A DNA stretch of 61,975 nucleotides from Candidatus Firestoneibacteriota bacterium (GTDB lineage Bacteria; Oederibacteriota; D2-FULL-39-29; CAIOVX01). Below are positions 160 to 60,716 of the stretch, one piece after another. The position numbers and the translations under genes were made by a program. The notes below the pieces were generated by a model, which did not search any database, was not told the origin of the DNA, and saw nothing but the letters and a program-made list of their open reading frames with translations. The stretch is taken from contig CAIOVX010000074.1 in the NCBI GenBank assembly GCA_903861835.1, positions 1 through 61,975 of the forward strand. The letters are read 5' to 3'. Position 1 is the stretch's first letter, and each line of letters starts with the position of its first letter.

Positions 160-188
160 TTGACTAAAAATTCCTAATATTGTAAAAT
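160..188 (+). promoter_or_regulatory. Sigma70-like promoter of the secretion/pilus operon
   Basis: TTGACT (160-165) and TAAAAT (183-188) are spaced by 17 bases. The predicted start near 195 is a few bases before the first paired strand of the candidate riboswitch at 201, the position expected for a riboswitch-controlled leader. Confidence 0.65.
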
Positions 189-198
189 CTTAACATAT

Positions 199-290
199 CC
201 GTAAGGGCTAACCCGGAGCAATCCGGGCTCGCAAAGCTATGGGTCTATAAAGTCGCCTGGTTTCCGGGCGTTCAGGTATCTTACTGACTG
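199..290 (+). promoter_or_regulatory. Candidate cyclic-di-GMP-I (GEMM) riboswitch
   Basis: A three-way junction can be drawn. GTAAG (201-205) pairs with CTTAC (279-283). A second stem CCCGGA/TCCGGG is capped by the GNRA tetraloop GCAA. A third stem CGCCTGG (254-260)/CCGGGCG (264-270) follows. Between the second and third stems is CGCAAAGC, the most conserved stretch of the GEMM class. The GNRA-capped helix and CGCAAAGC core are hallmarks of this family, which senses c-di-GMP or, in the GEMM-Ib subtype, cGAMP. Here it precedes a pilus/secretion operon, a typical target. I could not run a covariance search, and the ligand-contact base that separates the subtypes cannot be assigned by eye. Confidence 0.62.
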
Positions 291-305
291 CGTTTTTTTT
301 TGCGT

Positions 306-350
306 AGACCGCCTGGCAGCAGGTATTGTTTGTTATGGCGGTTTATTTTT
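306..350 (+). terminator. Terminator-like expression platform of the riboswitch
   Basis: AGACCGCC (306-313) can pair with GGCGGTTT (337-344), counting one G-U pair, and a U-rich run follows to 350. The heptamer CGCCTGG occurs both in the riboswitch (254-260) and here (310-316), so CCGGGCG (264-270) could pair with either copy. That gives a simple way for ligand binding to choose between termination and read-through. The loop is long (23 nt). Confidence 0.45.
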
Positions 351-384
351 CATATGGTTATTTGTTTTGGCTAAAAGGGGCAAA

Positions 385-2073
385 ATGGAAAAGCTTCGGC
401 TGGGTGAAATATTAGTCAAAGAAAAAATTATTACACCGGTCCAGCTTGAAAAAGCCCTTGCCGAACAAAAGGCGAGCGGTAAGAGGATAGGACATGCCCT
501 GCTTGACCTCGGTTATATCACCGAAGACAAACTCTTAAACGCTCTAGGCAACCAGCTTGACGTTGACACCATCAATTTAAACGATGCTCTAATTCCTGCA
601 GAAGTGGTAAAACTGGTTCCGGAAGATATTTGCAGGCGCTACAAAGTCCTTCCCTACGCCGTTTCCGACAACATTATCTCGCTCGCAATGGTAGACCCGC
701 TTGATTACCGCGTTATTAACGACGTAAAATTTCTCGTCCATAAAGATATCAAGCCCATGCTTGCATCTGAAAAGGCGATAAACAAAGCCATAAGCAAGTC
801 CTACGGGCTGCCCGATGAGATGCGCGATATGGTCAAGCAGATAGACAACAAGCTGCTCGACGACGATACTATAGAGAAAGAAGCCGCCAAGGCGGCGGAA
901 GCGTCTGACGACGCACCCATTATCAAGATAGTCGATCTCATTATAATTAACGCGGTTAAGGAAAGAGCGACAGATATACATCTTGAACCGTTCGAAAAAA
1001 CCATGAGGATCAGGTATAGGAAAGACGGAATTCTGCGCGAAGTGGCCGCGCCGCCGTTCCAGCTCTACAACTCTATTATCTCCCGCGTAAAGATCATGGG
1101 CAAACTTGACATAGCCGAGAACAGAATTCCGCAGGACGGCCGTATCAGCAAAAAGATCTCCGGGCGCGATATTGACTTCCGTGTTTCAATCATTCCCAAC
1201 CAATTCGGCGAGCGCTGCGTTATGAGAATTCTTGACCGCGGCGCAACCGTACTTGACCTTGAGAAACTCGGTCTAAACGGCGACGACCTGGCTCATTTTG
1301 ATGAGGCTATCAATAAGCCTTTCGGAATGATACTTATCTCGGGGCCTACCGGTTCCGGAAAAACCACTACTCTTTACGCCGCGCTTAACAGAATCTACAA
1401 CACCGGCGACAACATCCTCACGATCGAAGACCCCATTGAATATTCCTTCTTCGGCATTGGTCAGCTGGAGGTTAAAGAAGAAATTGGTCTTACTTTCGCG
1501 AAAGCCCTGAGGTCCTTCCTTAGGCACGATCCGGACATTATTCTTCTCGGAGAAATGCGCGACTTTGAAACGGCGGATATTTCCATCCGCGCGGCGCTTA
1601 CCGGGCACTTGGTCTTCTCCACCATTCACACGAACGATGCTCCAAGTTCAGTCACCAGGCTTATCGACATGGGGATAGAGCCCTTCCTTATTAACTCCTG
1701 CCTCGTGATGGTAATGGCTCAGCGTCTTGTTAGAAGGGCGTGTGAGCACTGTCGTCAGGAATTTATAATGAGCCCTGAACAGCAGCTTGCGACCTTCGCG
1801 CAGGTGCTTTCGAAGCAGCCCATGACATTCTATAAGACCACCGGTTGCGAGATCTGCTACAACACAGGTTATCGCGGCAGGACCGGCATTCATGAGATCA
1901 TGATGATGAATAATGAAATACGCACAATGGTCGCGCAGAAAGCGCAGCCGCACGAAATAAAGGCCGCCGCGGTAAAGGGCGGAATGAAGACGCTGTTCAG
2001 CAGCGGTATTGAACTTGCGCTTAAAGGCATCACGACAATAGACGAGATTATTAAGGTAGCCGGCACATCTTAA
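385..2073 (+). CDS. gspE: GspE/PilB assembly ATPase with MshEN-type N-terminus
   Basis: Cytoplasmic hexameric ATPase that powers pseudopilus or pilus assembly. The ATG at 385 is chosen over a TTG at 367 because AAAGGGG ends four bases before it, giving 562 aa. Residues 1-150 are an MshEN domain with two tandem motifs: RLGEILVKEKI near the start and an intact RIGHALLDLGYI copy. In MshE this domain binds c-di-GMP. The core has Walker A GPTGSGKT (320-327) and Walker B with DIILLGEMRD (384-393). A tetracysteine zinc site is formed by C453/C456 and C488/C491. It heads an operon of eight closely spaced genes. Whether the machine is a type II secretion system or a type IV pilus cannot be settled here. 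Confidence 0.95.
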   Translation: MEKLRLGEILVKEKIITPVQLEKALAEQKASGKRIGHALLDLGYITEDKLLNALGNQLDVDTINLNDALIPAEVVKLVPEDICRRYKVLPYAVSDNIISLAMVDPLDYRVINDVKFLVHKDIKPMLASEKAINKAISKSYGLPDEMRDMVKQIDNKLLDDDTIEKEAAKAAEASDDAPIIKIVDLIIINAVKERATDIHLEPFEKTMRIRYRKDGILREVAAPPFQLYNSIISRVKIMGKLDIAENRIPQDGRISKKISGRDIDFRVSIIPNQFGERCVMRILDRGATVLDLEKLGLNGDDLAHFDEAINKPFGMILISGPTGSGKTTTLYAALNRIYNTGDNILTIEDPIEYSFFGIGQLEVKEEIGLTFAKALRSFLRHDPDIILLGEMRDFETADISIRAALTGHLVFSTIHTNDAPSSVTRLIDMGIEPFLINSCLVMVMAQRLVRRACEHCRQEFIMSPEQQLATFAQVLSKQPMTFYKTTGCEICYNTGYRGRTGIHEIMMMNNEIRTMVAQKAQPHEIKAAAVKGGMKTLFSSGIELALKGITTIDEIIKVAGTS

Positions 2074-2106: not shown

Positions 2107-3348
2107 ATGCCTAATTTTTCATACACATGCATTGACGCGGATGGCAATGATTTTAAGGGCGTCATAGAAGCCGATTCCAAGGAAGCCGCGGTACAAAAAC
2201 TCCAAAACCAGAAACTTATGGTTACCGGTTGTAGGAAAGAGTTCCCCTTTGCGAAATATTTCAAGGGCGGAAACATCGGCGGCGCGAAGGTCAGCCGGGA
2301 AGATGTCCTGCTCTTTTCCAGGCAGTTGTCAACGCTGGTTAAGGCGAGGATCAGCTTGGAACAGTGCCTTGATGTTATGGTAAACCAAACTCAAAATCCC
2401 GAGTTCCAGAGAGTCATCAAGGAGATAAGGGCGGATGTAGTTTCCGGCACACCGCTCTCTGCCGCGATGGGCAAGCACCCGAAAGTATTCGGTTCTCTTT
2501 TCGTCGGAATGGTGAAGGCGGGAGAAGTTTCCGGTAAACTTCCTGAGATCCTTATTCGCACCGCAAAATATCTTGACCGCTCGGCGAGGTTGCGTTCAAA
2601 GTTGGTCTCGGCTATGGTCTATCCGTGCCTGGTTATCGGCGTCGGTTTTGTCATCGTGATCTTCCTTATGTGGAAGGTTATTCCTATGTTCGAGCAGATG
2701 TACTCAAAGATGGGCAGCAACCTGCCGCCCATCACCAAGGTAATGATCTTTACGAGCCGCGAAATATTCGGCAAATGGATATTTGCTATGCCCTGGCTCT
2801 TTATCTGGATAATAGCTATAGTGGGAGGAGTTTACTGGTTTCAGAACGCTCTTAAACAGGACAAATTCAGGATGTGGTTCGATATCCAGCTGCTGAGGGC
2901 GCCTGCGCTTGGCGAGTATCTTTCCAAGGTTATCTTTGCCAGGTTCTCGCAGACTCTGGGCATTCTGGTCAGCAACGGGGTTCCGATACTTGAGGCCATG
3001 GAACTGGTCGCCAAGACTGTTTCCAGCAAGCCCGTTGAGGCTGCAGTATTGGAATCACGCGACAAGATCAAGGAAGGTGAAAAAATAGCCGATACCTTTA
3101 GAAAGAGCAAGTTCTTCCCGCCTCTGGTGGTCTCAATGGTAAGCGTGGGTGAGCAGACGGGAAAACTCGGAGAGGTTCTCGAGCAGATTTCCGAGTTCTA
3201 CGAGGACGAGGTTGAAATAGCAACAGCAACACTTATCTCAATAATCGAGCCGGTACTCATTATCTGTCTGGCTGTTATGGTAGGCTTCGTGGTTATGGCG
3301 CTTTACCTTCCTATCTTCAAAATGTACGGAGGCATGAAGAAAGCTTAA
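2107..3348 (+). CDS. gspF: GspF/PilC inner-membrane platform protein
   Basis: Polytopic inner-membrane platform that couples the ATPase to pseudopilin polymerisation. At 413 aa it has the usual length. Two GspF domains flank a central membrane region: residues about 68-190 (SREDVLLFSRQLSTLV start) and about 270-400 (FARFSQTLGILVSNGVPI start). Three hydrophobic segments are visible, near residues 170, 225 and 375. AGCAGGGGGTGG precedes the ATG. It lies 33 bases after the ATPase gene. Confidence 0.95.
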   Translation: MPNFSYTCIDADGNDFKGVIEADSKEAAVQKLQNQKLMVTGCRKEFPFAKYFKGGNIGGAKVSREDVLLFSRQLSTLVKARISLEQCLDVMVNQTQNPEFQRVIKEIRADVVSGTPLSAAMGKHPKVFGSLFVGMVKAGEVSGKLPEILIRTAKYLDRSARLRSKLVSAMVYPCLVIGVGFVIVIFLMWKVIPMFEQMYSKMGSNLPPITKVMIFTSREIFGKWIFAMPWLFIWIIAIVGGVYWFQNALKQDKFRMWFDIQLLRAPALGEYLSKVIFARFSQTLGILVSNGVPILEAMELVAKTVSSKPVEAAVLESRDKIKEGEKIADTFRKSKFFPPLVVSMVSVGEQTGKLGEVLEQISEFYEDEVEIATATLISIIEPVLIICLAVMVGFVVMALYLPIFKMYGGMKKA

Positions 3349-3404
3349 TCAAAATAAGCGGGGGACCGCAAAAAGAAGAAATTCCACTTCAGGAGGTGGC
3401 TTTA

Positions 3405-3890
3405 ATGAAAAGGAAATCAGGTTTCACCCTCATCGAGCTCATGATCGTTATTGCGATCATAGGCTTGCTTGTCGCGATCGTCATACCGGATCTTTTGATG
3501 ACCAGGCAGCAGTCAGAAGTGGAGGCGTGCAAAGCGTCCCTTAGGGGTGTGCAGTCAGCGCTTGAGCTCTATTACACCCACTACAAGTACTATCCGCAGG
3601 CCCTGAACCAGCTGGTAACAGAAGGTTATCTTGGCGAGGGCAATGATAAGGACCCCTGGAATAAGGACTTTATGTATAAACCCGACTACGGTGGCGGCAC
3701 AGGCTCCAGCACCGGTTCGGGCGATAACCAGGCGACGAACTATTTTGTGGGAAGCTCCGGGCCTGACAAGACCCCGGGCAACACAGATGACGTAGAACCC
3801 CCGATCAACACCTCCAAGCACTCCTTCAAAGCGAAGGGCGCTGCGCAGGGCGGCGGAGACGTCGGCGGCACCGGACAGACTGCACAGTAA
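3405..3890 (+). CDS. gspG: Major pseudopilin, GspG/PilA-like
   Basis: Type IV pilin-like subunit of the pseudopilus or pilus. The ATG at 3405 follows AGGAGG at 3391-3396 with ideal spacing; an in-frame GTG at 3396 overlaps that site and is rejected. After a short basic leader the prepilin peptidase site G|FTLIE is followed by a long hydrophobic helix (residues about 8-28). The middle contains DPWNKDFMYKP, which matches the DPWG calcium-loop region of T2SS major pseudopilins. The tail is unusually rich in Gly, Ser and Thr. The predicted protein is 161 aa. No prepilin peptidase gene is in the window. Confidence 0.9.
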   Translation: MKRKSGFTLIELMIVIAIIGLLVAIVIPDLLMTRQQSEVEACKASLRGVQSALELYYTHYKYYPQALNQLVTEGYLGEGNDKDPWNKDFMYKPDYGGGTGSSTGSGDNQATNYFVGSSGPDKTPGNTDDVEPPINTSKHSFKAKGAAQGGGDVGGTGQTAQ

Positions 3891-4420
3891 TGACTGGAAG
3901 AACCGGGAAAAATAAAGGGTTCACGCTCATTGAAGTCCTGATCTCGATGGCTTTCATCGCCTTGATCTATGGCTTCGTTGTGTCGGTATTTTTCCAGGGG
4001 TTTTCCACTATCACGCGCGGTGAGATAGAAGACCAGGCTGTAACGCTGGCTAATAATGAAATAAAGAGGCTCTCGAGCTACGAAAACCCTCTCTATATAT
4101 ATTTTGTAGAGGGCATGGGCGGATCCGGCGGAATTATTGTTGATAAACTAAAGAGCGGTGATATGCTGCCGTACGAGCTGGTAACTGAAGGCAAAATCGC
4201 GATAGGGGAAAGATATAACCTCTTAAGCGAGGACTCCGGGTCAAACACTGACATTAAAGCTGCCAGCACGCCGAGGGCGCAATACACACGGACGGTGGAT
4301 CTGACTTTCGAGGATGTGCAACCGGCGTTAATACATCTCTGGGTCAATGTTAAGTGGACCGATCCGCAGCAGGAATTTCACGACGGAGAGTATGAGCTTG
4401 AAACTCTCCTCGCGCCATAG
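3890..4420 (+). CDS. Minor pseudopilin (GspI/PilV-like)
   Basis: A 176-aa minor pseudopilin whose ATG overlaps the stop of the previous gene (TAATG), implying coupled translation. The leader TGRTGKNKG is followed by FTLIEVLISMAF and a hydrophobic helix. The rest is predicted globular and extracytoplasmic. The class (GspH, GspI or GspV) is not certain; position between GspG and a GspJ-like gene favours GspI. Confidence 0.82.
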   Translation: MTGRTGKNKGFTLIEVLISMAFIALIYGFVVSVFFQGFSTITRGEIEDQAVTLANNEIKRLSSYENPLYIYFVEGMGGSGGIIVDKLKSGDMLPYELVTEGKIAIGERYNLLSEDSGSNTDIKAASTPRAQYTRTVDLTFEDVQPALIHLWVNVKWTDPQQEFHDGEYELETLLAP

Positions 4421-4430
4421 CGGAGACGGC

Positions 4431-5213
4431 ATGTTGATGAAGCGCGGTTCCAAAAAGGGAAAGGGTTTCACCTTGATAGAGCTCATGATCGCGATGGGGC
4501 TCGCTTTCCTGGTTTTTGCCGTTATTTATATGGCGTATTTTATTTCTCAGACGTTCTTTGTCAGGGGCACGGATTCACTGCAGGAGCAGATGTATGTCAG
4601 GGCTCTTTTTTCAGGCATAAGCGACGACCTTAAGTACCTGACACGCCTCAACGAACTCGGACAGAACAAGGACTTTCTTGTGTTTGAGGTCTTCAACAGA
4701 AAAGTGCTTAAGACAGACCAGGATACGAGCGATAGGCTAATACAGGGCAGTGTTATAAGTTACCAGCTTAATGCGACCAAGGATTATGAAGGCAATCCGT
4801 TCATGATTCTTCAAAAGAAGGAAGACACCTATCAGTGGTGGCTCAAGTTCGGCCACTCTGAGATGCCTGACGACCTGCTGGAGCCATTCGGCTACCCGTC
4901 GGATTACAGGGATCCTGTTATGGGCTATGAGCAATTGAGCACGGGACAGTTTTCGGATCTTATAGAGCAGGAAGACAAGAAAGAGTTCCTGGTGACAAGC
5001 GTAGTCTTTACTCCGTACGATAATGAAGGCTCGGAGATACAATCCGGGAGCACTTATGATGACCTTAAGTACGCAAGGTCTATTAAGGTGGAAGTGACGT
5101 ACAAAATGAAGAGCAAATACGGCGATTTAGGCACCGGGAAAGACAACGTTAAGACGGTTTCAACGATAATACCTTTCGTGAACTTCTTGGCGCAGAAAGA
5201 CGTTACCTATTAG
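4431..5213 (+). CDS. Minor pseudopilin (GspJ-like)
   Basis: A 260-aa minor pseudopilin. The ATG at 4431 is chosen because GGAG lies five bases upstream and ten bases after the previous stop; in-frame ATGs at 4392 and 4437 are possible alternatives. A basic leader (KRGSKKGKG) precedes FTLIELMIAMG and a hydrophobic helix, then a larger C-terminal domain typical of the GspJ class. GspK was not found, so this may be the largest minor pseudopilin of the tip. Confidence 0.82.
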   Translation: MLMKRGSKKGKGFTLIELMIAMGLAFLVFAVIYMAYFISQTFFVRGTDSLQEQMYVRALFSGISDDLKYLTRLNELGQNKDFLVFEVFNRKVLKTDQDTSDRLIQGSVISYQLNATKDYEGNPFMILQKKEDTYQWWLKFGHSEMPDDLLEPFGYPSDYRDPVMGYEQLSTGQFSDLIEQEDKKEFLVTSVVFTPYDNEGSEIQSGSTYDDLKYARSIKVEVTYKMKSKYGDLGTGKDNVKTVSTIIPFVNFLAQKDVTY

Positions 5214-5287: not shown

Positions 5288-6982
5288 TTGTCAAAGAATA
5301 CAAGCATCGGCATAGACATAGGCAACAGCCAGATAAAGGTTGTTTTGCTTAAAAAATCCGGGAACGGAGCGAAGATAGAGCGGTTCTTTGTAGAGAACTA
5401 CGGTCTTTCGCCAAAGGAGTTATCTTCGCCAATCGCCGTCGTCAACAAGCGTATGGAGATAATCGCGAAGATCTTTAAGGAACTAAAACCTGTTAACGTG
5501 GTGGTAGCGGTTGCCAAGGGCGAAGATAACATTAGGACCATTCAGATGCCTCTGATGACCGAGCAGTCTCTGCGCCAGGCCCTAAGGTGGGGCGGGCAGC
5601 CTGACTATATCCCTTTTGACCTTAAAGAAATGACTTGGGATGTGGTAATCTCCCAAGTTTATAGAAGGAAAGAAGAGATTAATGCGGAAGGCAAGGAAAA
5701 GATGGATGTTATCGTTGCCCTCGCAAAAAAGAATATTGTAAATTCCTATCTTGACATATTTGAAAGCTCCAGCGCGCTGATAGATGTGCTGGATTCTAAC
5801 ACCCTTTCAGGGCTAAATTTCACTTGTTTCAATTATGCCATCCCGAAGGATAAGATTTGGGCAAAGATAGACTTCGGGGCAGAGATGACAACAGTTAATG
5901 TGCTTGACGGGAGCAATCTCAAGTTCACACTGAACATCCCTTGGGGTGTCAACGATATCACGGAAATGACCCAGTCGGTAAGCGGCATCGCGGGCTGGAC
6001 GGAAGCGCAGGAATCCGTGCATGCGATGGATTTCAATATTTCCGACAATCCTGTTATGCAGGCCCTGGAACCTAAGATAAAGGATTTTGTTCGCCAGCTT
6101 AACGGAGCTATCAGCTTCTACGAGAGCAAGAACCAGGGCTGTGTAGTTTCAGAAGTAATGCTTTCCGGCGGCGGGGCAATGCTCTGCGGCATGGACAGGT
6201 TCATAGGTTCCAAGATAAACAGGGAAGTTAAGATTGAGAACGAGATAAACAGAAGCCTCATCAATTACGATAAGAAGGATGAAACACAACTGAAGATGCT
6301 TCTTCCCCAGCTTAATGTGGCTCTAGGCGCCGCGCTGCGCAACCTCACAGAACTCCGGAATACCGCAAACCTTTTGCCGTTCGACATTATGCTTGGAAGG
6401 AAATTAAAGAGCCGCAGGACTTCAACGGTAATAACAATCGCGGCTGTGCTCGCTCTGCTTTTCGGAGGGGTGGCTTTGAAGTATTCGGCCTACTCTAAAG
6501 ATACGCTGAAGCTTGCGGGAATAAGCAAAGAGTTCGACAGTCAGAAGGGGAAAGCCGGAGACCTTCTCAATATGAAGGACGCCATTGACACCTTTGAGAC
6601 TGTCAACCAAAACTATGCGACGCTAAACAAAAACTCGACACGCTGGTCGGAAGCTCTGATTGAACTTTCGGCTCTGGTGCCCAAGAATACCTACCTTGCG
6701 AACGCGAACTGGTCTGCTCGGTCGCAGCAACTTATGCTGAAAACGGATAAAAAATTCCAGCAGGAGCAGCAGGAAATTGTAGAGAAGCTCAATAACTCAA
6801 AGAATTTCAGCGGGATGAAACTCGGCAGGACAAACGAGACGGATGCAACTTACGATTACGATATTTCAAGAGTGGTTACCAGAGCCAGGTCTGCTGTTGC
6901 GAGTAATCCCCAGGCGGGCGGTGGCGTGAAGCCGGCAGGTACAACCGGCGGACAGCCAAACTCTGAAGGGGGGACACGATAA
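5288..6982 (+). CDS. GspL-like protein (PilM-PilN fusion)
   Basis: Inner-membrane scaffold linking the ATPase to the periplasmic part of the machine. Residues 1-355 form an actin-like PilM domain (SIGIDIGNSQIKVV at the start, IDFGAEMTT, VMLSGGGAML). One transmembrane helix lies near 380-400, and residues 405-540 are PilN-like. This is the architecture of GspL, or of PilM and PilN as one chain. The start is TTG, preceded by GAGGAG five bases upstream. The last 25 residues are Gly/Pro/Thr-rich. It ends in a TAATG overlap with the next gene. Confidence 0.85.
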   Translation: MSKNTSIGIDIGNSQIKVVLLKKSGNGAKIERFFVENYGLSPKELSSPIAVVNKRMEIIAKIFKELKPVNVVVAVAKGEDNIRTIQMPLMTEQSLRQALRWGGQPDYIPFDLKEMTWDVVISQVYRRKEEINAEGKEKMDVIVALAKKNIVNSYLDIFESSSALIDVLDSNTLSGLNFTCFNYAIPKDKIWAKIDFGAEMTTVNVLDGSNLKFTLNIPWGVNDITEMTQSVSGIAGWTEAQESVHAMDFNISDNPVMQALEPKIKDFVRQLNGAISFYESKNQGCVVSEVMLSGGGAMLCGMDRFIGSKINREVKIENEINRSLINYDKKDETQLKMLLPQLNVALGAALRNLTELRNTANLLPFDIMLGRKLKSRRTSTVITIAAVLALLFGGVALKYSAYSKDTLKLAGISKEFDSQKGKAGDLLNMKDAIDTFETVNQNYATLNKNSTRWSEALIELSALVPKNTYLANANWSARSQQLMLKTDKKFQQEQQEIVEKLNNSKNFSGMKLGRTNETDATYDYDISRVVTRARSAVASNPQAGGGVKPAGTTGGQPNSEGGTR

Positions 6983-8133
6983 TGGCCGGCGAGAATAAGG
7001 GAATACCGATACTCAGGGATTACAATATAGACAAGGTTGATCTCATTATTTACGGCGCGAGTCTTGTGCTCCTGCTCGTTGCGATTTTTGCTTTTGCGTT
7101 TATTTCAGGCAAGGACAGGGACGCGCAGCGGCAGATAAAGGTCAAAGCGACAAGGCTGAAGGTCTTCGGGGAGCTCCAGAGCAACGAGGTTCAGATAAAG
7201 GAGAAATACGCGAAACTCCCGGGGCGCGCTCAGGATCTTTACGATAGGTTTCTCGCGCAGGACGATGTGAACACTTACACCTTCTTCGTTAAGAGACTTG
7301 CGGACAAATTCAAAGCGAACAATTTCGGCATAGATCCCGGGAAGGGTATGGCCGGCAACGAGCCCAAGACTTTTCTTGTCTCGGACGCTGTCGCGGAATA
7401 TCTGATTTCAAAAAATGCATTTAATCCGAGTGTTTTTGAGGACAATCCGGATGGCGGGAAAAAGCTTACTTTGAAATTTGCGAAACTCTCGGTGCGTGTA
7501 AGCATGGAGCTTTCTTTCGGGAATCTAGTGGCATTCCTTTATGCTATTGAGAACTCCTCGAAGTACACCGAAGTCGCCGCTATTTCTATTTTTGGCACGT
7601 CTGATATCTCCCAGAAGGAATCTAAGGTAAGGGTGGATATGGTTGTTAACTGCTTCGGCAGAAGCGAAGAGTTTAAACGCCAGGTCTATTCCGTATTGCC
7701 TGTCGACAAGAAGCTGATTGAGAGCCAGAACAATGTGCTGGTAGCACTGCCCATAGTCAGTCTGGGCAGCAACCCGCAGGCGCAGTTCTTCGGCAGGAAT
7801 GAGGCCGTAGATTTTGGTGATTATTCAAGGACTGTTCATCCGGTTTTCTATGCGCACACGCCGGGTGATATAAAATGCCCGCAAGTGATTCCCAACAACA
7901 TTAGATATTCTGCCATTGTGGGGGATATCATCGCGTTTACCGACGGCACTACGACCTATTTTGGACAGACCGGCGGTTTTATTACGAACAAGGGCAAGCC
8001 GATACTGGGTTTTGAAAAACTCCTGCTGAAAGAGATTAATTCCGCGGAGCACACCATAACCCTGCAGAACCAGGCGATAAGCAAGTCGGAATACCCTGAG
8101 TGCCCGGATTCTGTGAAATTCAAGACCAGATAA
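6982..8133 (+). CDS. GspM/PilO-like periplasmic assembly protein
   Basis: Bitopic protein of 383 aa with a short cytoplasmic N-terminus, one transmembrane helix (residues about 22-42) and a coiled-coil followed by a ferredoxin-like region, as in PilO/GspM. It is longer than either family. The extra C-terminal 90 residues (GDIIAFTDGTTTYFGQ region onward) are beta-rich and reminiscent of PilP/GspC homology regions that touch the secretin, but I cannot prove that. Translation is coupled to the GspL-like gene. Confidence 0.75.
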   Translation: MAGENKGIPILRDYNIDKVDLIIYGASLVLLLVAIFAFAFISGKDRDAQRQIKVKATRLKVFGELQSNEVQIKEKYAKLPGRAQDLYDRFLAQDDVNTYTFFVKRLADKFKANNFGIDPGKGMAGNEPKTFLVSDAVAEYLISKNAFNPSVFEDNPDGGKKLTLKFAKLSVRVSMELSFGNLVAFLYAIENSSKYTEVAAISIFGTSDISQKESKVRVDMVVNCFGRSEEFKRQVYSVLPVDKKLIESQNNVLVALPIVSLGSNPQAQFFGRNEAVDFGDYSRTVHPVFYAHTPGDIKCPQVIPNNIRYSAIVGDIIAFTDGTTTYFGQTGGFITNKGKPILGFEKLLLKEINSAEHTITLQNQAISKSEYPECPDSVKFKTR

Positions 8134-8243: not shown

Positions 8244-9869
8244 ATGAAAAAAGCACTGATTGCATTGGCCGCGCTTCTGTTGTGCGGTGTAGTATCGGCG
8301 CAGAATGTGTATGTGGAACCGCCGCTGGAGTTCAGTGACACGCCCGTAAGGACGGCGCTGGACACCATATTCATGAAAGCCGGCAATGTGCCGTATTCGA
8401 TAGAGATAACGAATCCGGCGGAAGTTCCGCCCGTCACCTTGAAGCTGACGGAGAGGCAGGAACTTGAAGCGCTGCTGAAACTTGTTTTGGACACGCGCAA
8501 CCTGGAGTTTAAGAAGGATGCGGGAGGCGTGTACCACATCTCTAAAGTGGGCGGTTCAGTAAAGGCCGCTGCGCCGGCGAAGGTGACAAAACTCTTCGCC
8601 TTGACGTACGCGACAGCCGGAGAAATAGTCAGGCAGGTAAAGGGAGTGCTGACGAAAGACGGCGGAATCTCGGTTGATGTGGGCACAAACGCGCTTATCA
8701 TCAGCGACGACCCGGCGGTTTTTGAAGGAGTCGAGAACCTGTTAAAGGAGCTTGACAACCCGGAAAGGAAAGCCAAACTGATTTCAATCAAGACAAAACT
8801 GCTTGAAGTTGCCAACAATACCGATACGACAATGGCGATAGACGCGCAGTACAGCCAAGCGGCCCAAATATCTGTGTTGGGAGGAAAGCTCTCGAATCCG
8901 TTTACGATGGGAACCAGATTTAATGTGTCCAATCCGACAACGGGACTGGCGACCGTGGGTTCCGGCTTCTATATAGGGCCTGTGACCTGGACGGCGGGAG
9001 TTGACAGCGTGCTTACGGGTTTATTCGCGACCTGCAACGCTACGAAGGTTGAGATGACCGCGGATCCGGATGTGGTAGTTGAAGACGGAACTGAGGCGAG
9101 AATACAGATAGGCAGCAAAGAGCCTATCCTGTCGGCCTCAGCGACCTCGTCAGGAACGACAATTACATACACCTACCAGGATGTGAACATAGTTCTGACG
9201 GTGACCCCGCAATCACAGAGGGACAACACTATCAGCATCCAGATCAACCCGGTTGTGAACCAGATCTCGGGGTATGTAAGTTCAACCGTGCAGGGAACCA
9301 CCTCCACGGTGCCGAGGATAGACAACAGGGAAGTAAGGACGAAGCTCTTTGTAGCGAACGGCGGAACCATCAGGCTGGGAGGAATGTATAAGGACAGGAC
9401 AACGACTTCAGAACTGAAGATTCCGATCCTTGGAGACATCCCGCTGATAGGTTTATTGTTCAAAAAGACCGAGCCGATAAACGACAAGGTAGACTTGCAG
9501 ATGCTGGTCTCTCCGCACATAGTTGACTACGCGCCGCCGAGGTGTAAAGAGACCCCTTGGATAGGGCTGCTGGAAGCGAGTATGGCAGGGGATATGGATA
9601 TAAGGGTAGATTGGAGCAAGGATCTTCCGTACGGAGCGAACAACATCTTCTCGTATAACGTGTACAGGGATACAAACCCTATCACGAGCCTTGAAGACAG
9701 GAAACCGTTTGCTTCCGGAGTATCCGGTGAATCGACGAACTGGGTAGACACAACGAAGAAGAGGCGGAATGGAACTTACTACTATGTTGTGACGGCGATT
9801 AACCCGTCAGGCATGGAGCAGTCCATCTCGACCGATTCCAAGTATAACGCTCAGATCACGATTCCTTAA
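8244..9869 (+). CDS. gspD: Secretin (GspD/PilQ family) with C-terminal FN3-like domain
   Basis: Outer-membrane channel of the secretion or pilus machine. A clear signal peptide ends at A19|Q. An STN-type N0 domain (about 28-95) and one N1-type domain (about 110-165) precede the secretin barrel domain (about 170-427), which contains EDGTEARIQIG and VPRIDNREVRT and ends in VSPHIVDY. At 541 aa it is short because only one N1 repeat is present. The last 100 residues are unusual: IRVDWS, FSYNVYRD, TYYYVVTAINPSG is the pattern of a fibronectin type III fold. This sits where an S-domain for pilotin binding is usually found. Confidence 0.9.
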   Translation: MKKALIALAALLLCGVVSAQNVYVEPPLEFSDTPVRTALDTIFMKAGNVPYSIEITNPAEVPPVTLKLTERQELEALLKLVLDTRNLEFKKDAGGVYHISKVGGSVKAAAPAKVTKLFALTYATAGEIVRQVKGVLTKDGGISVDVGTNALIISDDPAVFEGVENLLKELDNPERKAKLISIKTKLLEVANNTDTTMAIDAQYSQAAQISVLGGKLSNPFTMGTRFNVSNPTTGLATVGSGFYIGPVTWTAGVDSVLTGLFATCNATKVEMTADPDVVVEDGTEARIQIGSKEPILSASATSSGTTITYTYQDVNIVLTVTPQSQRDNTISIQINPVVNQISGYVSSTVQGTTSTVPRIDNREVRTKLFVANGGTIRLGGMYKDRTTTSELKIPILGDIPLIGLLFKKTEPINDKVDLQMLVSPHIVDYAPPRCKETPWIGLLEASMAGDMDIRVDWSKDLPYGANNIFSYNVYRDTNPITSLEDRKPFASGVSGESTNWVDTTKKRRNGTYYYVVTAINPSGMEQSISTDSKYNAQITIP

Positions 9870-33656: not shown

Positions 33657-33765
33657 CCATCAACGATTGGGAGTAAAGATTCGGCCGTACGGCGGGATAG
33701 ACTCTGCCTCGCGGTCTTTTTTTTTAGCACCCGGTCGAATTTTAGGCACCAAAGGAGTAAAGGAA

Positions 33766-33966
33766 ATGGCAAGAGGTAAAGTGAAATGGTTCAACGATCA
33801 GAAGGGCTACGGGTTCATCACCCCGGAGAACGGAAAGGATGTATTCGTACATTTCTCCGCAATCCAGGGCGACGGTTTCAAGTCCCTTGCTGAAGGCCAG
33901 GAAGTCGAATTCGACATCACCATGGGCCAGAAGGGTGAGCAGGCAACCAACGTCCACAAAGTCTAA
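33766..33966 (+). CDS. cspA: Cold-shock protein (CspA family)
   Basis: A 66-aa single cold-shock domain that binds single-stranded nucleic acid as an RNA chaperone. The RNP1 motif KGYGFIT and RNP2 motif DVFVHFSAI are intact. The ATG at 33766 follows AAAGGAG; the frame is open further upstream but that part is the leader and promoter. It is monocistronic, with its own promoter and terminator. Confidence 0.97.
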
Positions 33967-33997
33967 TAGACTTCAGGACTAAAATAAGCCTACAAGC

Positions 33998-34033
33998 GAG
34001 GCGGGACAGCAATGTCCCGCCTCTTTCTTTTTT
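33998..34033 (+). terminator. Rho-independent terminator of the cold-shock gene
   Basis: GAGGCGGGACA, loop GCAA, TGTCCCGCCTC, then TTTCTTTTTT. Confidence 0.95.
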
Positions 34034-60212: not shown

Positions 60213-60716
60213 ATGAAAGCCCAGCAGGTACGCATCGGCCATATAGCGAAAGAAATAAAGATGTCCTACAGTTTGGTCTGCAAGATCCTGAATAATACCC
60301 CTAATTTCAAACCATCTGAATCAACACGGCTTATGGTCCTGCGCAAGGCGCAGGAAATGGGATTTAGCTACTCCTCGCTTCGGCGCATTCACAGGCGCAA
60401 ACACACGAGAGTAAAGCATCAGTCGGGAGGAGATATAGTCATAAAAACTTTAAACGGAGAAGTTTTTGATTCCGGCACTTTTGTAACCGATGACTTAAGC
60501 AAGAACGGAACCTGCATCTGCAAGCCGGAGCTTGAGAGGGGAGTTTTTCCGGCCGAGCCTTTCTACTGCGATTTCAAGATGACAGACGGTCCCTTGAGGG
60601 GGCACACTTTTAAGGGCTTGCCGGTGCGCCTTGCTTGCGAGAAAGGCTTCGCAATGGGTTTCAAATTCACGGATATGTCTAAAGAGCAGCTGCGCCATTT
60701 ATCGTCAGTCTGCTGA
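60213..60716 (+). CDS. LacI-type HTH fused to a PilZ domain (putative c-di-GMP-responsive regulator)
   Basis: A 167-aa protein. Residues about 5-58 are a LacI-type DNA-binding headpiece (VRIGHIAKEIKMSYSLVCKI, then LNNTPNF and KAQEMGFSYSS). Residues about 60-165 are a PilZ-like domain instead of the usual sugar-binding module. The two c-di-GMP ligand motifs are present: R62xxxR66 (RKHTR) and D94xSxxG99 (DLSKNG). The C-terminal GFAMGFKFTDMSKEQLRHL matches the PilZ end. It has its own strong promoter and an AGAGGAGG ribosome site. The targets are unknown. The sequence does not show whether c-di-GMP activates or releases it. Confidence 0.8.
   Translation: MKAQQVRIGHIAKEIKMSYSLVCKILNNTPNFKPSESTRLMVLRKAQEMGFSYSSLRRIHRRKHTRVKHQSGGDIVIKTLNGEVFDSGTFVTDDLSKNGTCICKPELERGVFPAEPFYCDFKMTDGPLRGHTFKGLPVRLACEKGFAMGFKFTDMSKEQLRHLSSVC

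Follow-up and report, generated by a model that had tools for sequence, protein, structure and literature searches.

A class I c-di-GMP riboswitch leader, predicted to be of the OFF type, precedes an MshEN motor gene in an uncultured bacterial order

The operon analysed here opens with a leader homologous to class I c-di-GMP (GEMM) riboswitches, and its first gene encodes a motor ATPase whose N-terminus is an MshEN domain. The reading that we prefer, with a probability of roughly 0.5, is that an OFF-type class I leader stands before an MshEN motor and that the copy in the window has been weakened. The window, by which we mean the whole stretch of DNA analysed (61,975 nucleotides), belongs, as contig C74, to a genome of 2.18 Mb (G000) that is 98% complete; judged by the ATPase, the nearest named records are Candidatus Firestonebacteria assemblies (94–95% identity). 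An earlier note on the window had proposed that a promoter, a GEMM-type riboswitch, a terminator-like hairpin and an MshEN ATPase place one operon under c-di-GMP control at two levels, and all four parts are present. The proposal of two levels stands in part. Its anatomy is well borne out in the lineage, where six intact aptamers precede orthologous MshEN ATPases, and the window's own genome has GGDEF, HD-GYP and PilZ matches, but the window's own copy probably folds poorly, so that two-level control may be lost in the window's species. Moreover, because the predicted sign is OFF, the RNA and motor levels, to which the note gave no sign, would work against each other and not in concert.

Promoter, aptamer and terminator of the operon leader

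The leader of the ATPase operon occupies positions 160–384 and comprises promoter, aptamer and terminator (Table 1). A promoter scan of positions 1–400 returned three promoter-like sites where 1.2 were expected and is therefore weak taken alone; the -35/-10 block, conserved in all eight aligned leaders, bears out the promoter claimed upstream of the aptamer. Likewise, the terminator-like hairpin produced a concrete counterpart common to the four genomes of the genus, in which the arms ACCGCC and GGCGGT, followed by TTATTTTT, lie at the same place; a simple terminator scanner reported its inner stem (311–324) only. Another hairpin that resembles a terminator, with GCGTTCAG...CTGACTGC and then nine T, occurs at 268–301 in the window's copy only and overlaps the 3' strand of P1.

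Table 1. Features of the operon and its leader in the window.
Feature	Position	Strand	Basis or remark
Sigma-70-like promoter, TTGACT-17-TAAAAT	160–188	+	Scan; block kept in eight aligned leaders
c-di-GMP-I (GEMM-I) aptamer, divergent copy	194–280	+	RF01051 and lineage model; 18 of 19 pairs kept
P1, 195–199 with 275–279	195–279	+	Five pairs in the window, three in relatives
P1b stem 212–217/222–227, GCAA tetraloop 218–221	212–227	+	
P2, 236–242 with 264–269; weak P3 inside P2	236–269	+	
Candidate antiterminator, 242–247 (GGTCTA) with 305–310 (TAGACC)	242–310	+	24/1000 shuffles as good
Competing hairpin CGCCTGG-TTT-CCGGGCG, window-specific	254–270	+	Minimum-free-energy fold; incompatible with P2
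Intrinsic terminator, 308–313 with 337–342, T-rich tail 343–350	308–350	+	Shared by the four genomes in the genus
MshEN-bearing assembly ATPase, PilB/GspE-like	385–2073	+	ATG at 385 after AAAGGGG
MshEN c-di-GMP motif I, position 10 Lys in place of Gly	397–468	+	
MshEN c-di-GMP motif II	484–555	+	
PilC/GspF-like inner-membrane protein	2107–3348	+	PF00482, 212 bits
Three pilin/pseudopilin genes, 3396–3890, 3890–4420 and 4347–5213	3396–5213	+	N-terminal methylation motif PF07963
PilM-like protein, long C-terminal part	5288–6982	+	TIGR01175, 136.3 bits (cut-off 133)
Protein of no assigned family, weak GspM-like match	6982–8133	+	29.8 bits (cut-off 60)
Secretin	8244–9869	+	PF00263, 131.8 bits

Over 199–290, where the note had placed its riboswitch, a covariance-model match was found: RF01051, the Rfam family of c-di-GMP-I (GEMM) aptamers, matches 196–268 on the forward strand with 41.8 bits (gathering score 35 bits; E 8e-5 for the whole window). 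A lineage model (R1), built from the aptamers of six intact relatives (G001, G002, G004, G006, G007 and G008), widened the match to 194–280 (62.5 bits, E 2e-16). The six source aptamers reach 39.3–58.9 bits with RF01051 and, high by construction, 100.5–107.2 bits with the lineage model; of the seven aptamers that Rfam recognises, the window's diverges most by this model. In the homologous register it keeps all but one of the 19 pairs, three of them via G-U changes, and its sequence can form the core helices and the GNRA tetraloop. P3 is nearly lost, and 10 of the 51 aptamer columns that are invariant in the six relatives are changed. For the 3' half, we discarded the shifted register given by Rfam in favour of the homologous one, on the strength of the lineage model. 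A 9-nt deletion and an 8-nt insertion in P3, read by eye, were likewise dropped, the alignment requiring no large indel. A second GEMM in the same genome (contig C11, 23.8 bits, under the cut-off) was taken as a chance match.

Conservation of the arrangement within the order

We searched 98 genomes with the RF01051 covariance model, among them the nine of the window's order (G000–G008) and 36 other members of its phylum. Seven of the nine order genomes gave a match, and the 36 from elsewhere in the phylum gave none. The ATPase has an ortholog in all nine, the eight relatives being 71–95% identical. In the same seven (G000, G001, G002, G004, G006, G007 and G008), one aptamer stands immediately before this ortholog, an arrangement that spans two families of the order. 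The named record L110, whose leader stretch is the same as that of G008, was left out of these counts. At the corresponding site, G003 carries a decayed relic of the aptamer (23.7 bits with the lineage model). In G005 (locus L039) the promoter is kept and unrelated sequence has taken the place of the aptamer; an Rfam search of this ATPase leader returned no RNA family match. Judging from these alignments, the pairing of aptamer and ATPase probably goes back to the ancestor of the order and has been eroded more than once. A grouping of the window and G003 as sisters was rejected, the pilB tree placing the window outside the other three; since the tree does not group the two, their aptamer changes look independent.

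G004 and G008 have seven RF01051 matches each. In two loci of G008 (L021 and L026), a GEMM at 1501–1583 stands before PorV/PorQ-type outer-membrane-like genes, named by eye.

Folding of the aptamer and predicted sign of control

To predict the sign of control, we folded the six intact leaders to a length just before the 3' arm of the terminator, either freely or with P1, P1b and P2/P3 imposed. In all six, imposing the aptamer lowered the pairing of the terminator 5' arm with upstream RNA. The drop was strong in four leaders (G001, 0.70 to 0.03; G002, 0.70 to 0.10; G007, 0.54 to 0.01; G008, 0.74 to 0.29) and weak in two (G004, 0.28 to 0.19; G006, 0.71 to 0.64). Because aptamer formation frees the terminator 5' arm in the intact relatives, an OFF switch is predicted. 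At full length, the leaders of G002, G004, G008 and the window form the terminator in either state, and the switch must therefore be kinetic, operating during transcription.

The strands that could serve as antiterminator vary. In the window, imposing the aptamer took the pairing of the candidate antiterminator from 0.79 to 0.00 at a transcript length of 124. The corresponding GGTCTA/TAGACC strands are no better than chance in G001 and G002, where 131 and 197 of 1000 shuffles were as good. Pairing of CCGATAACTT with AAGTTATCG-type segments stands out in G007 (0/500 shuffles as good) and G008 (9/500), and the CCGATAACTT strand is at chance in G001, G002, G004 and G006 (490, 192, 175 and 83 of 500, respectively). 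A single antiterminator for the whole order is thus unsupported: the strands differ by family and several do no better than shuffles.

In the window, CGCCTGG (254–260) and CCGGGCG (264–270) form a hairpin of seven pairs that destroys P2 and is absent from the predicted folds of the six intact relatives. The aptamer fold lies 16.9 kcal/mol above the predicted minimum in the window, compared with 1.7–4.4 kcal/mol in the six. With P1b and P2 alone imposed, the cost is 11.2 kcal/mol, the second highest among 55 aptamer matches. For the remaining 54, some of them counted twice from overlapping loci, the median is 0.3 kcal/mol, and the sole higher one is a partial match. The window's aptamer therefore does not fold at or near its predicted minimum, a yardstick of our own and no demand of Rfam, which lowers the claim of a working copy and not that of descent. 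Because of the hairpin and the 16.9 kcal/mol, we regard this copy as probably impaired, and it may no longer switch; the energies leave out ligand, tertiary contacts and folding kinetics, so this verdict could be wrong.

We propose the following mechanism. The leader would descend from a class I c-di-GMP riboswitch acting by transcription termination, and it would guard an operon coding for either a type IV pilus or a type II-like secretion machine; the first gene of this operon encodes a motor with a putative c-di-GMP-binding MshEN domain at its N-terminus. In the intact relatives, part of the aptamer would pair with the terminator 5' arm when ligand is absent, allowing read-through; with c-di-GMP bound, the aptamer would be held, the terminator would form and the operon would be OFF. 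The MshE motor of V. cholerae is activated by c-di-GMP. If c-di-GMP acted on the window's motor in the same way, as the analogy suggests, it would activate motors already made, and the RNA arm and the motor arm would thus be opposed. In the window's species, the aptamer would fold into the competing hairpin, making a weakened or constitutive attenuator likelier than a working switch.

Two other readings of the RNA bear on this. The window's riboswitch may still work, if the aptamer forms co-transcriptionally before the competing hairpin and binds c-di-GMP, leaving two-level control in place. The score above the RF01051 gathering threshold, the retained pairs, the lengthened P1, the conserved tetraloop and base at the G20-equivalent position, and the kept terminator all fit such a copy; the seven-pair hairpin, a folding cost that is an outlier among the 55 matches, the changes at invariant columns, the near loss of P3 and the occurrence of a decayed copy elsewhere in the genus make us doubt it, and we hold it to be somewhat unlikely. 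An ON switch, whether throughout the lineage or only in the window through inversion, would move transcription and motor activation in the same direction. The Rfam register would leave CCGGGCG available for pairing with CGCCTGG of the terminator arm (-13.7 kcal/mol, 9/500 shuffles as good), opposing termination, and published pilus riboswitches are described as ON. However, the imposed aptamer frees the terminator arm in six of six intact relatives, the Rfam register in the window gives no difference between the two states (0.42 and 0.42), and the lineage model backs the homologous register, which leaves an ON switch quite improbable. The preferred reading, an OFF-type leader weakened in the window, can be extended to an incoherent feed-forward loop on one transcript, in which c-di-GMP would shut down fresh synthesis of the machine through the OFF riboswitch while licensing existing motors through MshEN, and which would be conserved in the order and repeatedly discarded (in the window, G003 and G005); this extension is possible, and we offer it tentatively.

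The motor ATPase and its MshEN domain

The start of the ATPase at 385 was set by alignment with its relatives. The protein matches PF00437 with 448 bits, and its N-terminus is indeed the MshEN domain that had been recognised from the letters: PF05157 gives 70.6 bits (cut-off 23.1) and NF053729, the NCBIfam model of the c-di-GMP-binding motif, 70.2 bits for the full protein and 73.0 for the first 152 residues (cut-off 38). Solved MshEN structures are matched as well at the sequence level. The ATPase falls under the equivalog cut-offs of both PilB and GspE (TIGR02538, 631.4 against 675.65; TIGR02533, 605.9 against 630.25), and we therefore keep both "pilus" and "type II-like secretion" as descriptions of the machine. 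Among the downstream genes, the pilin/pseudopilin genes include a GspG-like match below its cut-off, and their first starts may be internal.

MshEN has been described as two 24-residue c-di-GMP motifs with a published consensus (PMC5013675). Both motifs, RLGEILVKEKIITPVQLEKALAEQ and RIGHALLDLGYITEDKLLNALGNQ, and the five-residue spacer are present in the window's ATPase, as they are, by the published descriptions, at the N-termini of the assembly ATPases MshE of V. cholerae and PilF of T. thermophilus. The motifs depart from the full consensus at motif I position 10 (Gly to Lys) and at motif II positions 2 (Leu to Ile) and 11 (Tyr). The Lys is the sole clear departure and distinguishes the window's motor, a putative binder, from MshE and PilF; the other key positions are kept.

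It is unlikely, in our view, that the RNA level alone senses c-di-GMP, the MshEN domain of the ATPase having lost binding and a single level of control being left. Two features of the orthologs would fit this: motif I position 10 is Lys or Asn in nine of nine, a change that falls outside even the relaxed motif of PMC5013675, and several have Pro, Lys or Leu at position 1. Against it, the remaining key positions are kept and NF053729 gives the operon ATPases of seven genomes (G000–G004, G006 and G007) 67.1–77.4 bits. In addition, GSPII-B of T. thermophilus is reported to bind c-di-GMP at 6 nM even though the motif arginines are absent (PMC11731258), and PilB of G. metallireducens, by its sequence, has Asn at the first motif position, which would bear on this if that PilB is a binder. 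Passing NF053729 is no proof of binding, because it is passed as well by three paralogs that lack the RLG glycines (42.8–50.0 bits). The genome of the window encodes a second ATPase elsewhere, adjoining a PilT-like gene (named by eye); this PilT-linked paralog was read in eight genomes, and in every one both motifs have another residue in place of the RLG glycine. A third ATPase of the same genome (L054, G000:C87:20258-21757) carries a TGA in frame within its match. In G003, whose aptamer is decayed, the ATPase (L035) has Leu for Arg at motif I position 1, and from these sequences the RNA and MshEN levels may be relaxing together there.

The c-di-GMP pathway and the ligand of the aptamer

The window's genome has six GGDEF, two HD-GYP and five PilZ matches, one of the latter below the family cut-off. 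No EAL phosphodiesterase was found in the nine genomes of the order. The GGDEF active sites (GGEEF or GGDEF) are normal in five of the five loci examined, two of which are from the window's own genome. Position 206 of the window, which we equate with G20 of Vc2, is G, as is its counterpart in all relatives (seven copies in total). The aptamers of G004 and G008 (L036 and L037) have T for C at the position that we equate with C92 of Vc2, which, to judge from the sequence, might change their ligand preference.

These data bear on the alternative that the ligand is 3',3'-cGAMP and not c-di-GMP. GEMM variants of this specificity exist, one of them before a pilus operon (PMC9262584), and the substitution in G004 and G008 would be compatible with such a change. 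However, the normal GGEEF/GGDEF motifs and the G in seven of seven copies, a base presented in the cited paper as a selectivity factor and no hard filter (PMC9262584), make cGAMP a very improbable ligand, and we infer c-di-GMP.

The pairing outside the order and in the literature

Among 30 loci tested from the 98-genome search, the pairing occurred only in the window's order. Another phylum is rich in GEMM aptamers, with matches in 121 of 149 genomes, and from it we examined 100 stretches around aptamers, taking the best matches listed; most are about 6 kb long and several are shortened by contig ends. One of the 100 (L182, genome G216) has an aptamer at 18–102 directly before a PilB-like ATPase that reaches 52.9 bits with the c-di-GMP motif model and is followed by pilT-, pilC-, pilM- and pilN-like genes, these later genes being named by eye. 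The 30 shorter loci of the same phylum showed no aptamer–MshEN ATPase pairing within their flanks. As judged by sequence matches, the arrangement of GEMM and MshEN motor exists outside the lineage too, though it is rare there. The earlier note had made this pairing its point of interest: the pairing is real but not new in kind, given G216 and C. difficile.

We take the riboswitch of the C. difficile primary pilus operon to be of class II (Cdi2_4), and pilB1 presumably lies in this riboswitch-led operon. This c-di-GMP riboswitch is reported to raise expression of the operon (PMC11656802, PMC6837544), and C. difficile PilB to carry an MshEN domain (PMC9765702), which by analogy suggests an ON counterpart of the pairing. 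Both systems have a riboswitch before a pilus operon in an organism with an MshEN motor; they differ in RNA class and in sign, the aptamer here being of class I and predicted OFF. In G. metallireducens, a riboswitch before pilM also has the GEMM fold and precedes a pilus operon, but its ligand is cGAMP, its sign is opposite and the first gene is different; the source contrasts it with the OFF switch Cd1 of C. difficile (PMC9262584). Cd1 belongs to the same aptamer family, and its logic as described there (ligand-stabilised aptamer, released terminator, antiterminator breaking the aptamer) is the one predicted here; Cd1 controls flagellar genes, unlike the motor operon of the present lineage, and the window's copy is predicted to misfold. 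Bc1 of Bacillus thuringiensis, in the published account, has at least two terminators behind its class I aptamer and is reported to be locked OFF whatever the c-di-GMP level, which may be a parallel to the window's leader; its gene is mcpE, without an MshEN motor, and Zur is involved.

Among the matches listed, no title or abstract opening announces the pairing itself, and the five records listed, of 5,562 on Firestonebacteria or riboswitches, were all riboswitch papers. What appears to be new is a class I aptamer directly before a motor gene, with a predicted OFF sign that would oppose the expected activation of the motor, and its repeated loss within an order, with probable damage in the window's own copy. 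If the OFF sign is true, the effects of one messenger on the synthesis of a machine and on its activity would run in opposite directions, and such a design would limit pilus number or give a pulse. Closely related motors with an intact, damaged, decayed or missing riboswitch would constitute a natural experiment, in which the share of the RNA level would be measurable by comparison. Otherwise, the finding would modestly extend GEMM control over pilus genes, adding one uncultured group.

Further observations in the window

A PilZ-like match lies near the end of the window (60393–60707), with 21 bits against a cut-off of 22.5. At 33688–34028, the Rfam model of the cspA thermoregulator matches with 78.7 bits (cut-off 78); as this model includes coding sequence, a cold-shock gene alone may explain the match.
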